From NCBI GenBank assembly GCA_016872855.1, contig VGYV01000003.1:1-40988 (forward strand): DNA of 40,988 bases, given 5' to 3'. This document shows, piece after piece, positions 1,689 through 28,130 of this stretch (position 1 is its first letter; the number at the start of each line of letters is the position of its first letter). Under the pieces are notes generated by a model that ran no database searches, was not told the origin of the DNA, and saw nothing but the letters and a program-made list of their open reading frames with translations. This DNA comes from Planctomycetota bacterium. GTDB taxonomy: Bacteria > Planctomycetota > PUPC01 > DSUN01. The translations under genes and the position numbers were made by a program.

Positions 1689-1689
<1 letters not shown>
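1027..1689 (+). CDS. Class I SAM-dependent methyltransferase
   Basis: ILDVGCGSGRFSVAVA motif I; TTG start; 3' end overlaps next ATG (ATGA). Confidence 0.85.
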
Positions 1690-3211
<1,522 letters not shown>

Positions 3212-3236
<25 letters not shown>

Positions 3237-21542: not shown

Positions 21543-21560
21543 GAGCCGAATGCCCGATTG

Positions 21561-21664
21561 GCAATCCGTAATGCGTAATTCGTAATCCGTAACAGGACAA
21601 GAAAAGACCTGGCCTTTTGCTCTCTTCTGGTTACGGATTACGGATTACGGATTACGCGATACGG
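21561..21664. repeat. Heptad-word inverted repeat (GTAATNC)n ... (GGATTAC)n
   Basis: CAATCC GTAATGC GTAATTC GTAATCC GTAAC ... GTTACGG ATTACGG ATTACGG ATTACGC GATACGG. Confidence 0.95.
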
Positions 21665-21672
21665 ACACAGCA

Positions 21673-22693: not shown

Positions 22694-24028
22694 TTGCGCC
22701 TTCAGCCGAGGGAATCAGGGATCAACACGCCGGCTGTCGTCCTCTACATGAGCTACCTCGGCCTCGGGCTGGTGCGCGCCCTGGGGCGTGAGGGCGTGCG
22801 CGTCTTCGCACTTGACCCGCACCGCGATGCCCTGGGCATGAACTCCCGCTACTGCACGCCCGTCGTGACCCCCGACATCGTAGCCCGCCGCTCCGCGGCG
22901 GAATGCTGCCGCGTCGGAGACGCGGACCACGCCAAGGAGAGCGAAGCGCGCTACCTGGAGTTCCTGCTCGACTTCGGCCGCCGGCTGCCGCAGAAGGCCG
23001 TGCTCTATCCCACGGGCGACCCAACAGTGGTGCTCCTCTCGCGCGAGCGCGCGGCCCTGTCGCAGTACTATCACTTCGTCATGCCCGACCACGCGACGGC
23101 GCTGAAGCTGCTGACAAAGGACGGCTTGGACGCCGCGGCTCGGGAGCACGGCATCCCTGCTCCGCGCACCGTCATCCCCGCCGACCGCGCGGGGGTGGAG
23201 GCCGCGGCGCGCGAACTCCAGTTCCCCGTCCTCCTCAAGCCCGCCGAGAGCCACGCCTGGAAGGCCCCTGAGGTCGTCCGCCTCATAGGGGTGGGCACGA
23301 AGGTCATTCCCTGCGCCTCGCAAGGGGAACTGCTCGCCCGGTACGACACCCTCTGTGAGTGCAGGACTGAAATCGGAAATCGGAAATCGGAAATCGGAAA
23401 CCAGCCGAGGGTGATCATCCAGGAGATGATCCCTGGTGAGGACGAGCGTCTGGTCTACTGCTGCTTCTACGTCGGGCGGGGCGGCGAGCCGCTGGGCGTG
23501 TTCGCGGGGCGGAAGCGCCGCGTGCTGCCGCCCGGCCTCGGCTCGGCCAGCTTCGCCGAGAGCATGGCCGACCCCGCGCTCACCGACGTCACGCTGCGGC
23601 TCCTCCGCGCCGTGGGCTACCGCGGCCTCGGAGGGGTCGAGTTCAAGCTCGACCCGCGCGACAACACTTACAAGCTCATCGAGTTCAACGCCCGCTTCGG
23701 CCTTTGGGACGCGCTGGGCGCCCGCTGCGGGGTGAACCTGGCGCACATTGCGTGGCGGGACGCGCAGGGGTCGCCCGTCGAGCCGCGGCTCCGCTGCCGG
23801 ACGGGCGTGAAGTGGGTCTCGATGCAACGGGACCTGTCGGCGTTCCGGCTCTACCGTCGGCAGGGCAAGCTGAGCACGTGGCAGTGGCTCCGCTCGCTCG
23901 CTGGCGAGAAGATGTGGGCCGTCCTCGCGTGGGACGACTTGGCCCCCTTCCTCTCCACCGCCCCCAGCTATCTGTGGGGCCTTTTGGCGCCGAGGCTTGG
24001 GCTGCGAAGAGGTCGTAAGGCAAAATGA
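22694..24028 (+). CDS. ATP-grasp ligase-like protein
   Basis: FPVLLKPAESHAWK, VIIQEMIPGEDERLVYC, GGVEFKLDPRDNTYKLIEFNARFGLWDALG; start codon uncertain. Confidence 0.8.
   Translation: MRLQPRESGINTPAVVLYMSYLGLGLVRALGREGVRVFALDPHRDALGMNSRYCTPVVTPDIVARRSAAECCRVGDADHAKESEARYLEFLLDFGRRLPQKAVLYPTGDPTVVLLSRERAALSQYYHFVMPDHATALKLLTKDGLDAAAREHGIPAPRTVIPADRAGVEAAARELQFPVLLKPAESHAWKAPEVVRLIGVGTKVIPCASQGELLARYDTLCECRTEIGNRKSEIGNQPRVIIQEMIPGEDERLVYCCFYVGRGGEPLGVFAGRKRRVLPPGLGSASFAESMADPALTDVTLRLLRAVGYRGLGGVEFKLDPRDNTYKLIEFNARFGLWDALGARCGVNLAHIAWRDAQGSPVEPRLRCRTGVKWVSMQRDLSAFRLYRRQGKLSTWQWLRSLAGEKMWAVLAWDDLAPFLSTAPSYLWGLLAPRLGLRRGRKAK
22885..22925. repeat. Two adjacent perfect 7-bp-stem/3-nt-loop palindromes in the ATP-grasp gene (CCGCCGC-TCC-GCGGCGG; CCGCGTC-GGA-GACGCGG)
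   Basis: Direct reading; encodes ARRSAAECCRVGDADHA. Confidence 0.7.
23370..23397. repeat. Heptad tract (AAATCGG)4 in frame in ATP-grasp gene
   Basis: Four exact heptads; encodes TEIGNRKSEIGN. Confidence 0.95.
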
Positions 24029-24100
24029 TTGAGCGGCAAAATGATAAGATGGGAATCAGGGTCCGGATTCCTATCATTTTGCCCGCAATCATTTTGCCTT
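24017..24100. repeat. Inverted repeat AAGGCAAAATGATTGAGCGGCAAAATGATA / TATCATTTTGCCCGCAATCATTTTGCCTT
   Basis: Near-perfect ~30-nt arms; ATP-grasp stop TGA at 24026 within arm. Confidence 0.95.
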
Positions 24101-24131: not shown

Positions 24132-25568
24132 TTGCCGTTGAGAGTCGCACTGATCCAGCCGCCGATGGATTCGGACTACCCGCCCCTGAGCCTCGGCTCG
24201 CTCGCGGCCTATCTGGCGGCGAAGGGGCACGAGCCGCGCATCTTCGACCTCCAGGTGCCGGCCCAGCGGGCCGCCTGGCCCGGCTCGCTGGCGGAGTTCG
24301 AGCCCCGCCTTGTCGGCGTGACGGCCATGACCCCCACCATCGCGGCCGCGGCCGAGGTGGGCCGCGCGTGCAAGCAGGCGGCGCCCGACGCCACGCTTGT
24401 CCTCGGCGGCTATCACGTGAGCTTCCTGCCCGAGGAAACGATGCGGCGCTACCCCGCCTTCGACCTCGGCGTCGTTGGCGAGGGCGAGGTGACGCTGGCC
24501 GAGCTTTGCGACCGCCTCGAGGCCAGCCAGTCGCCTGAGGGAATCGCGGGCCTTGTCTGGCGGACCGATTGCAGATTGAAATCTGAAATCGGCAATCTGA
24601 GATCTGAAATCGCTCTGGGCCCGCCCCGCGAGCGAATTCGGGACCTCGACAGCCTGCCCTGGCCCCACGAGCACTACGACCTCGACCACTATCTGTGGTA
24701 CGGGGGCTACACTGGGCGCTGGACCTTCAAGTGCGCGAGCGCCATCGTCTCGCGCGGCTGCCCGTTCCGCTGCCGTTTCTGCGCCTCGCAGCGGTTCTGG
24801 TCCCACCGCTACCTCGTCGTCTCGCCCGAGCGCGTGGTGGACGAGATGCGGTGGCTGGCCCGCCACGGCGCGCGGAGCGTGTACTTCCGCGACAGCACGT
24901 TCAACGTCAACAGGAAATGGCTCCGCGAGTTCTGCGCGGCCAAGGGGCGGGCGGGCGTGAAGATGCGGTGGCTGTGCAACAGCCGGGTGGACACGCTGGA
25001 CGAAGAGCAGCTTGCCCTGATGGCCGAGGCGGGCCTCGAAGCGCTCTACTTCGGCGTCGAGAGCGGCAGCCAGCGCATCCTCGACTACTACGGCAAAGGC
25101 GTCACCGTCGAGCAGACCCGCGAGGCATTCCGCCTCTGCCATAGGCACGGCGTCGCCACGGCAGCCTACTTCATGATTGGCGCGCCCATCGAGACCCGGG
25201 CCGACATCGAGGAGAGCCGCAAGCTCGCCTACGAGCTGCGGGCGAAGTACACCTACTGGTTCATCTACACCCCGCTGCCGGGCGCCCCGCTCTACGACGA
25301 CTTCATCGAGCGGGGCTACAAGCCGGACTTCGAGCACTTCGTCTTCAGCCGCGCGACGATTCCCGTGGGCGACCTGGCCCCCGAGGAGCTGGAGGCCCTT
25401 CACCACGAACTCGTCGCCGAGTTCCGGCGGAAGGCCACGCGGGGCGAGGTCTGGCGCCGACGCTGGGAGATCCTCCGCTCGGTCCGCTCCTGGCGCGACG
25501 TGCGGCATCTGGGCCGCAAGCTCGCGCGACGGATCGGGCTGGGTGGTCGGGGACAAGTCGAGGGTTGA
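24132..25568 (+). CDS. B12-binding domain radical SAM protein (paralog A)
   Basis: LRVALIQPPMDSDYPPLSLGSLAAYLAAKGHE..., SRGCPFRCRFCASQRFW (CxxxCxxC); TTG start. Confidence 0.9.
   Translation: MPLRVALIQPPMDSDYPPLSLGSLAAYLAAKGHEPRIFDLQVPAQRAAWPGSLAEFEPRLVGVTAMTPTIAAAAEVGRACKQAAPDATLVLGGYHVSFLPEETMRRYPAFDLGVVGEGEVTLAELCDRLEASQSPEGIAGLVWRTDCRLKSEIGNLRSEIALGPPRERIRDLDSLPWPHEHYDLDHYLWYGGYTGRWTFKCASAIVSRGCPFRCRFCASQRFWSHRYLVVSPERVVDEMRWLARHGARSVYFRDSTFNVNRKWLREFCAAKGRAGVKMRWLCNSRVDTLDEEQLALMAEAGLEALYFGVESGSQRILDYYGKGVTVEQTREAFRLCHRHGVATAAYFMIGAPIETRADIEESRKLAYELRAKYTYWFIYTPLPGAPLYDDFIERGYKPDFEHFVFSRATIPVGDLAPEELEALHHELVAEFRRKATRGEVWRRRWEILRSVRSWRDVRHLGRKLARRIGLGGRGQVEG
24567..24615. repeat. Seven consecutive heptads GATTGCA GATTGAA ATCTGAA ATCGGCA ATCTGAG ATCTGAA ATCGCTC, in frame in radical SAM A
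   Basis: Exact period 7. Confidence 0.9.
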
Positions 25569-25578
25569 AAGGAGGCGG

Positions 25579-25666
25579 GGATGAATGGATGTATGGATGA
25601 ATGGATGAGTGCCAGAGCGCGTGCGGGTTCTGACATTCATCCATTCATCCACCCATCCAACCATCC
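25579..25666. repeat. Octad-word inverted repeat (GGATGNNT)4 / (ANNCATCC)4, copy 3
   Basis: GGATGAAT GGATGTAT GGATGAAT GGATGAGT ... ATTCATCC ATTCATCC ACCCATCC AACCATCC. Confidence 0.95.
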
Positions 25667-25681
25667 CCCTGGGGCTTTGGA

Positions 25682-27151
25682 ATGCGCGTGACGCTGGTGC
25701 AGCCTGACACGGGCGGGAGCTACCCGCCGCTGAGCCTGGGCTATCTGGCGGCCTACGTGGCCGCGCGGGGACACGAGGCGCGGATACTCGACCTCCAGGT
25801 GCCCGCGCAGCAAGCGCGCTGGGAACAACTCCTCGTCGAGTCGCGGCCGGACCTCATCGGCTTCACTGCCCTCACCCCGAGCATCCGCGGCGCGGGCGAG
25901 CTGGCCGCCCGCGCGCGCGAGCTGGTCCCGACCGCGAAGCTCATCGTCGGCGGCTTCCACGCCTCGATGGAGCCCGAGCAGACGCTCCGCGATTACCCCG
26001 CCTTCGACTACCTGTGCATAGGCGAGGGGGAGGAGACCCTCGCCGAGCTGTGCGAACGCCTCGATGCGGGCCGCTCGCCGGAGGGCGTCGCGGGGTTGGT
26101 GTGGCGTCGCGATTGTGGATTGGGGATTGCGGATTGCGGATTGAAATCGGAAATCGGAAATCGGAAATCGGAAATCGAGTTTGGGCCGCCCCGCGGGCGC
26201 ATCCTGGACCTCGATGCGCTGCCCCGGCCCCACGCCTTCTACGATCTGGATTACTACTTGGAGGCGGGCAGCTTCACCTACCAGTACGGCTACCGCTGCG
26301 CGTCGGTCATCGCGTCGCGCGGCTGCCCGTTCCGCTGCCGGTTCTGCTCGATCCCGGGCAAGTATGTCCACCAGTCGCCCGAGCGTCTGGCGGATGAGAT
26401 CGGCGAGCTGCTGGCGCGGGGGGCCGACGGCGTGTTCTTCCGCGACAGCACGTTCACGATCAACCGGGACTGGGTGCTGGCCTTCTGCGACGTCGTGCGG
26501 CAGCGGCGGATGCAGTTCCACTGGATCGCCAATGCCCGCCCTGACCTGGTGGACGCCGAGCTGCTGGCCGCGATGAAGCGGGCGGGCTGCTTCGCCCTCT
26601 GCTACGGCGTCGAGAGCGGGCGCGACCACGTGCTCGACTACTACGGCAAGGACCACACGGTGGCTGACACCCGCCGCGCCGTGGCGGCGACGAAGCGGGC
26701 CGGCATCCGCGTCGTCGCCTACCTCATGCTCGGCGCGCCCATCGAGACGCGGGCCGACATCGAGGCGAGCGTGGCCCTCGCCCGCGGACTAGGCGCCGAG
26801 CGCACCATCTGGAAAATCTTCGCCCCGCTCCCCGGCTGCGAAATCTACAACGAGCTGAAGGCCAAGGGGGTGAAGCTGGATTTCGACGCCATCCGCACCG
26901 ACCGGGCATCATACCCCCTGGCCGACATGACGGAGGCGGAGATCGAGGGGCGCTTCCGCGAGCTACAGCGTGAGTTCGCTTACGCACGCGACAGCCGCCT
27001 GCGCGTCTTCTGGCGCCAGCTCCGCCGCGTCCGCTCCCCCCGCGACGCCTGGCGCCTGGCCCGCCGCGTTTGTAGTTCCGCGTTCACGCGGTCTTCCCAG
27101 AAGCCGCCTGAAGGCCGAACTACGAACGCGGGGCGCAGTGGAGGGGACTGA
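25682..27151 (+). CDS. B12-binding domain radical SAM protein (paralog B)
   Basis: MRVTLVQPDTGGSYPPLSLGYLAAYVAARGHE..., SRGCPFRCRFCSIPGKYV; strongly similar to paralog A. Confidence 0.9.
   Translation: MRVTLVQPDTGGSYPPLSLGYLAAYVAARGHEARILDLQVPAQQARWEQLLVESRPDLIGFTALTPSIRGAGELAARARELVPTAKLIVGGFHASMEPEQTLRDYPAFDYLCIGEGEETLAELCERLDAGRSPEGVAGLVWRRDCGLGIADCGLKSEIGNRKSEIEFGPPRGRILDLDALPRPHAFYDLDYYLEAGSFTYQYGYRCASVIASRGCPFRCRFCSIPGKYVHQSPERLADEIGELLARGADGVFFRDSTFTINRDWVLAFCDVVRQRRMQFHWIANARPDLVDAELLAAMKRAGCFALCYGVESGRDHVLDYYGKDHTVADTRRAVAATKRAGIRVVAYLMLGAPIETRADIEASVALARGLGAERTIWKIFAPLPGCEIYNELKAKGVKLDFDAIRTDRASYPLADMTEAEIEGRFRELQREFAYARDSRLRVFWRQLRRVRSPRDAWRLARRVCSSAFTRSSQKPPEGRTTNAGRSGGD
26111..26178. 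repeat. Heptad tract (GATTGNN)5(ATCGGAA)4 in frame in radical SAM B
   Basis: GATTGTG GATTGGG GATTGCG GATTGCG GATTGAA ATCGGAA x4; position homologous to 24567 tract. Confidence 0.95.
27066..27129. repeat. Inverted repeat GCGTTTGTAGTTCCGCGTTCACGCGGTC / GCCGCCTGAAGGCCGAACTACGAACGC at the 3' end of radical SAM B
   Basis: Encodes C-terminal CSSAFTRSSQKPPEGRTTNAG. Confidence 0.85.
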
Positions 27152-27152
27152 G

Positions 27153-28128
<976 letters not shown>

Positions 28129-28130
<2 letters not shown>

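Follow-up and report, generated by a model that had tools for sequence, protein, structure and literature searches.

Heptameric repeats of bacteria are over-represented for a reason that is unknown, and published descriptions place nearly all of them between genes. STRR heptamers of filamentous cyanobacteria are tandem heptanucleotides dispersed in the genome, as are the tracts described here, and to our knowledge no in-frame insertion of them into conserved enzymes is known. The function of the GGGAATC heptameric repeats of Xanthomonas and of the GGGGA(C/T)T repeats of Nostoc is likewise unknown (Rehm et al., 2015, PMC4692102), and among the TAACTGA repeats of the Beggiatoaceae the largest class ends 1 nt ahead of a start codon (MacGregor, 2015, PMC4679880). 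In the Planctomycetota bacterium studied here, conserved and probably essential enzymes have taken up heptads in frame, at a site that has been used repeatedly. Since the copies landed without breaking the reading frame, repeat DNA has been turned into extra protein loops.

Heptad inverted pairs in two tandem B12-binding/radical SAM paralogs

The window, which is the whole stretch of 40,988 nucleotides that was analysed, contains two proteins in tandem with a B12-binding and a radical SAM domain, paralogs A and B, which are 51-52% identical in the alignment (Table 1). Paralog A is listed with a TTG start, and an alternative downstream start is possible near 24165. Both proteins harbor a heptad tract at identical codon positions, and the flanks match residue by residue, as the original prediction had stated. 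The tracts are not plain tandem arrays as had been thought, since each consists of two heptad arms that form an inverted pair with GATTGAAATC at the centre, and both have the form (GATTNNN)n-GA-(NNNAATC)n. Tract A reads GATTGCAGATT-GA-AATCTGAAATCGGCAATCTGAGATCTGAAATC and tract B GATTGTGGATTGGGGATTGCGGATTGCGGATT-GA-AATCGGAAATCGGAAATCGGAAATCGGAAATC. The expected number of seven heptad-phase units is correct for tract A, whereas tract B has 10 rather than about nine. The difference in length is exactly 21 nt, i.e., three heptads, and three is the fewest 7-nt units that preserve the frame.

Table 1. Positions of the paralogs, their tracts and further heptad repeats in the window.
Feature	Position	Strand	Remarks
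Paralog A, B12-binding domain + radical SAM protein	24132..25568	+	Pfam PF02310, PF04055; ORF; gene call
Tract A, heptad inverted pair, encodes DCRLKSEIGNLRSEI	24567..24611	+	45 nt; net +11 codons vs homologs
Tract A left arm, GATTGCAGATT	24567..24577	+	
Tract A right arm, (AATCNNN)n including one GATC	24580..24611	+	
Paralog B, B12-binding domain + radical SAM protein	25682..27151	+	Pfam PF02310, PF04055; alignment
Tract B, heptad inverted pair, encodes DCGLGIADCGLKSEIGNRKSEI	26111..26176	+	66 nt; net +18 codons
Tract B left arm, five GATT cores	26111..26142	+	
Tract B right arm, five AATC cores, GGAAATC units perfect	26145..26176	+	
Mixed GATTACG/GATTCCA heptads in called gene	1797..1828	+	
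Single AATCGGC arm in called gene 1689-3236	2888..2919	+	same repeat family
Second heptad hairpin family, AATCCGT arm, loop, TTACGGA arm; intergenic	21549..21665	+	
Single AATCGGA arm in ATP-grasp-like gene 22748-24028	23371..23395	+	same repeat family
Single AATCGGC arm in called gene 27138-28130	27709..27740	+	same repeat family

Among 78 aligned homologs, taken from this genome and from its phylum, the linker, measured from GLVWR to DLD, comprises 19-21 residues in 64 members. It has 31 residues in A, 38 in B, 38 in a third paralog, C25, and 56 in a fourth, L226. Homologs did not have an equal length at this position, which would have refuted the original prediction, but about 20 residues; relative to them the tracts are insertions. 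The usual turn of the linker is R-x-D/E-G-x-V/I-x-x-N-P-P-R, and the additional residues sit between Asp and Ile/Val. The junction codons in A, B, and C25 coincide, with GAT (Asp) on one side and ATC/ATT (Ile) on the other. In the predicted structure of paralog B, for which A was the sole partner sequence, the mean pLDDT is 47 and the loop is not placeable.

Several other repeats lie close to the two genes. Between paralogs A and B (25577-25668) there is an octamer hairpin, (GGATGAAT)n ... (ATTCATCC)n, which is built like the heptad hairpins but has period 8; with a strict pattern, 1.55 Mb of the genome yielded 15 octamer hairpins. A short way upstream of paralog A (24017-24100) lies an inverted repeat, GGCAAAATGATT ... 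AATCATTTTGCC, which contains a direct repeat. The C-terminal tail of paralog B is encoded in part by a GTAGTTC ... GAACTAC hairpin (27072-27123), and a similar peptide (83%) is encoded by another ORF on contig C411. Paralog B has at least 27 matches in its genome, a few of them to repeat-encoded peptides only, and belongs to a large B12/radical-SAM family.

A dispersed repeat family within and between genes

The pattern AATC(NNNAATC)3 has 298 matches in the 8.9-Mb assembly and none when read backwards, and the hairpin pattern has 112 with none for the reversed control. Moreover, 46 of the 49 perfect tandem arrays (at least four copies, periods 4-15) have period 7, counted in 1.55 Mb of sampled contigs, many of which were selected for carrying tracts. 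The heptad tracts are therefore beyond chance. AATCGGC and AAATCGG are the prevailing units; the arms differ in heptad words and number, and the loops range from 2 to more than 90 nt. The second heptad hairpin family of Table 1 has the opposite arm order (AATCCGT ... CCAGA, loop, TCTGG ... TTACGGATT) and is often found near gene ends. There is a weak tendency of the arms to be mismatched at heptad position 5 (24 of 28, about 19 expected, P ~0.02), which is absent from other genomes, where the arms agree at all three spacer positions. A search of the window against Rfam at gathering thresholds gave no match to a known RNA family.

Within the phylum, 65 of 393 sampled genomes have the hairpin pattern, mostly in few copies; it is absent from the sole genome of the same family, the contig of which lacks the linker region. 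It is also found in all ten named genomes searched, e.g., with 227 matches in Acidobacteria, 136 in Chloroflexi, and 106 in Desulfococcaceae. As these ten, one of which is Planctomycetota bacterium E44_bin39, were reached via loci already matching the pattern, they show its presence in other phyla and not its frequency. The family thus has a patchy distribution in Planctomycetota and extends to other phyla. BLAST of the tract flanks against the 1.55 Mb gave no empty site at high DNA identity, only the A/B pair and other repeats.

Of 56 sampled elements of the main family, 30 lie in called genes, 22 are intergenic and four are located at gene edges. The genes were called with a simple home-made finder based on codon usage, and several hosts were confirmed by Pfam, namely carA, alanine racemase, rsmA, asparagine synthetase, and a ketoacyl synthase. 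Since coding sequence makes up 86% of the sample, genes are still avoided per base. The tract in carA lies in the linker between its two domains, and alanine racemase has about 54 residues where chains in the PDB have 9, i.e., about 45 extra. In another tract-rich planctomycete, which is identical to E44_bin39, only two of 28 arms are inside genes, so that the position in coding sequence seen here is unusual. Elsewhere in the sample (L211:11374-11405) a heptad tract codes for the leader part of a pilin-like protein with N-terminal methylation (NRRSEIGNRKSAFTLIELLVV).

Unpaired AATCGGM arms are oriented with the genes, with 24 sense and three antisense (two-sided binomial P ~5e-5), which split into 15 vs. 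1 within genes and 9 vs. 2 in intergenic regions. Furthermore, an ATG follows exactly 4 nt past the last AATC in 28 of 86 arms, compared to two at all other offsets within 8 nt. Arrays that end 4 nt before starts in heptad phase are L205:4152-4183, L207:1846-1870, and L254:14357-14381. A part of the phased ATGs are clearly real starts (guaA, MTHDTILILDFGSQ) and others lie outside a coding context. The same start-codon phase has been reported for TAACTGA repeats (MacGregor, 2015, PMC4679880). Neutral insertion does not account for the strand bias and the start-codon phasing, and starts may act as seeds.

Repeated entry into one loop and proposed origin of the tracts

The third paralog lies on another contig (G000:C25:24020-25411) and is 36% identical to B. 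Its tract, GATGGCAGATGGCAGATT-GA-(AATCGGA)n, lies at the same codon as tracts A and B. In a FastTree phylogeny computed without the linker region, A and B are sisters (support 1.0), and C25 falls within a clade of 13 homologs with 20-residue linkers and no tract (0.995). In L226 a different hairpin repeat of the CCCTCTCCC...GGGAGGGGG type occupies the same site, which explains the length of its linker. Since C25 is nested among tract-less homologs and the L226 repeat is unrelated, the insertions at this loop were repeated and independent. The loop is thus a permissive site that has received no fewer than three separate insertions, by repeats of two kinds, all in one genome, and the heptad hairpin itself has entered the same loop of three related enzymes in frame on at least two independent occasions. 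The original prediction had offered two explanations, a tract older than the duplication and rewritten in place, or an insertion hotspot. For the wider family C25 and L226 decide in favour of the hotspot; the A/B pair alone fits either, as the data are compatible with one old insertion kept recognisable by slippage or with two younger ones.

A dispersed heptad element is the likely source of both tracts, which would have landed or been seeded as copies of it, drifted by slippage and been filtered for in-frame positions in tolerant loops. Such an element would consist of a left arm (GATTNNN)n, a loop of at least 2 nt and a right arm (NNNAATC)n. It would arrive in the linker that connects the B12 domain with the radical-SAM domain, at a surface turn that is normally R-x-D-G-x-I/V, or would grow there out of a short seed, in either case between the codons for Asp and Ile. 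A tract could survive there because both strands of the heptads are stop-free in all three frames, because the encoded peptide (KSEIGNR or DCGLRIA type) would lie in a loop that tolerates it, and because the frame is kept only if the length changes by three heptads (21 nt). Read directly, AATCGGA, AATCGGC, GATTGCG, and GATTGCC are free of stops whatever the frame, whereas one frame of the centre GATTGAAATC contains a stop, and A, B, and C25 share the same allowed frame. Replication slippage inside each arm would afterwards change arm length and words, and the filter would retain only in-frame copies in tolerant loops, presumably with a near-neutral effect on the enzyme. The same loop was entered independently in C25, and in L226 by the different hairpin repeat.

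Among the other explanations we give hardly any credence to the one in which this subfamily natively has a long, variable linker and the heptads are no more than a low-complexity loop at the codon level. Interdomain linkers frequently vary, but elsewhere in the family this one is tightly kept at 19-21 residues, and the tract codons end in A/T, in a genome whose third positions are about 10% A+T. Tracts of the same kind also occur in all sorts of genes and between them, and the dispersed repeat family already contradicts this reading. A single insertion before the A/B duplication, rewritten by slippage in each copy, with C25 as a separate and later event, is possible, although we lean against it. 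It would agree with A and B being sisters that share left and right junction codons and the frame through GATTGAAATC. However, fourfold-degenerate sites of A and B are 57% identical with 41% expected from composition, which is near saturation, and yet the right arm of B consists of five perfect units. The tracts therefore either postdate the duplication or are actively maintained, as an unmaintained tract from before the duplication should have decayed; slippage could preserve the regularity. Moreover, identical junctions arose independently in C25 and are therefore no proof of common descent; they could also reflect a native GAT...ATC seed or gene conversion between loci.

Such a seed is central to a further explanation, to which we attach a comparable, minority share of belief, namely that the array grows in place by heptad slippage and template switching, with no transposition. 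GAT and GAAATC, together with their inverted complement, already occur in the local codons for D-G-E-I (GAT GGN GAA ATC), all three tracts are bordered by Asp GAT and Ile ATC/ATT, period 7 predominates, and the preference for an ATG at offset +4 looks as if NNRATG were a unit. On the other hand, terminal CATTGCC/GGCAATG units are also found away from starts (carA) and resemble the end of an element, and words common to distant loci and other phyla suggest a spreading sequence. It is unlikely that the tracts are functional RNA or DNA sites, regulating translation or transcription, whose coding copies were selected for this role. The sense orientation of unpaired AATCGGM arms, several of which end 3-4 nt before a start, e.g., that of guaA, would fit, as does the similar behaviour of TAACTGA repeats, for which such roles were proposed (PMC4679880). 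But these start calls come from the simple home-made gene finder, the affected genes have no common theme, and tracts A and B are hundreds of bases away from any start. Folding of tract B is no better than that of shuffles (z 0.05) and that of tract A is weakly better (z -1.8), so that selection for RNA pairing of these two tracts is unsupported. Some other copies fold better than shuffles (z about -4.5).

Beyond the reading preferred here, copies of a dispersed element in tolerant loops, we tentatively propose a wider one, about which we are rather doubtful: the stop-free and thus coding-compatible heptad inverted repeats, present in several phyla, might in this planctomycete lineage invade conserved enzymes in frame on a large scale, with growth phase-locked to landmarks such as starts or GAT...ATC seeds, and might so form a slippage-driven, transposase-free source of loops. 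The origin can be tested directly, as coding copies should differ between strains by 21 nt only and intergenic copies by any multiple of 7.

Comparison with described repeats

Like the Xanthomonas and Nostoc heptads, of which there are about 180 per genome, the repeats described here are dispersed and have an AATC core with a variable remainder, and they form inverted pairs, 70-75 in those genomes compared to 112 hairpin matches here (PMC4692102). However, 89-93% of the former are intergenic, whereas 30 of 56 sampled elements lie within called genes here, and instead of quadruplex-capable G-runs there are mostly GGC/GGA units and no G-runs (PMC4692102). The direct TAACTGA repeats of the Beggiatoaceae share the dispersed, start-oriented heptads and the starts in heptad phase (MacGregor, 2015, PMC4679880). 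They have stops in all forward frames, lie almost exclusively between genes and include one inverted pair in 170, whereas the heptads described here are stop-free and mostly paired or in genes (PMC4679880). The Rickettsia palindromic elements (RPE) are also palindromic and occur in frame in conserved protein genes as well as between genes, but form families of 105-146 bp with conserved sequence, in contrast to the arrays of 45-150 nt with variable length and words found here (PMC2229807).

Heptads in inverted pairs (PMC4692102), start-oriented heptads (PMC4679880), and palindromes in Rickettsia genes (PMC2229807), the nearest counterparts of these tracts, were thus already known. In the literature searched, subscription journals excepted, no description of stop-free heptad hairpins in conserved enzymes was found. 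New is the combination, in which hairpins of stop-free heptads have entered conserved enzymes in frame time and again, among them several paralogs at one and the same loop. The idea of a palindrome that invades proteins, as in Rickettsia, is thereby carried over to a phylum that is free-living, and to an element whose sequence is not fixed.
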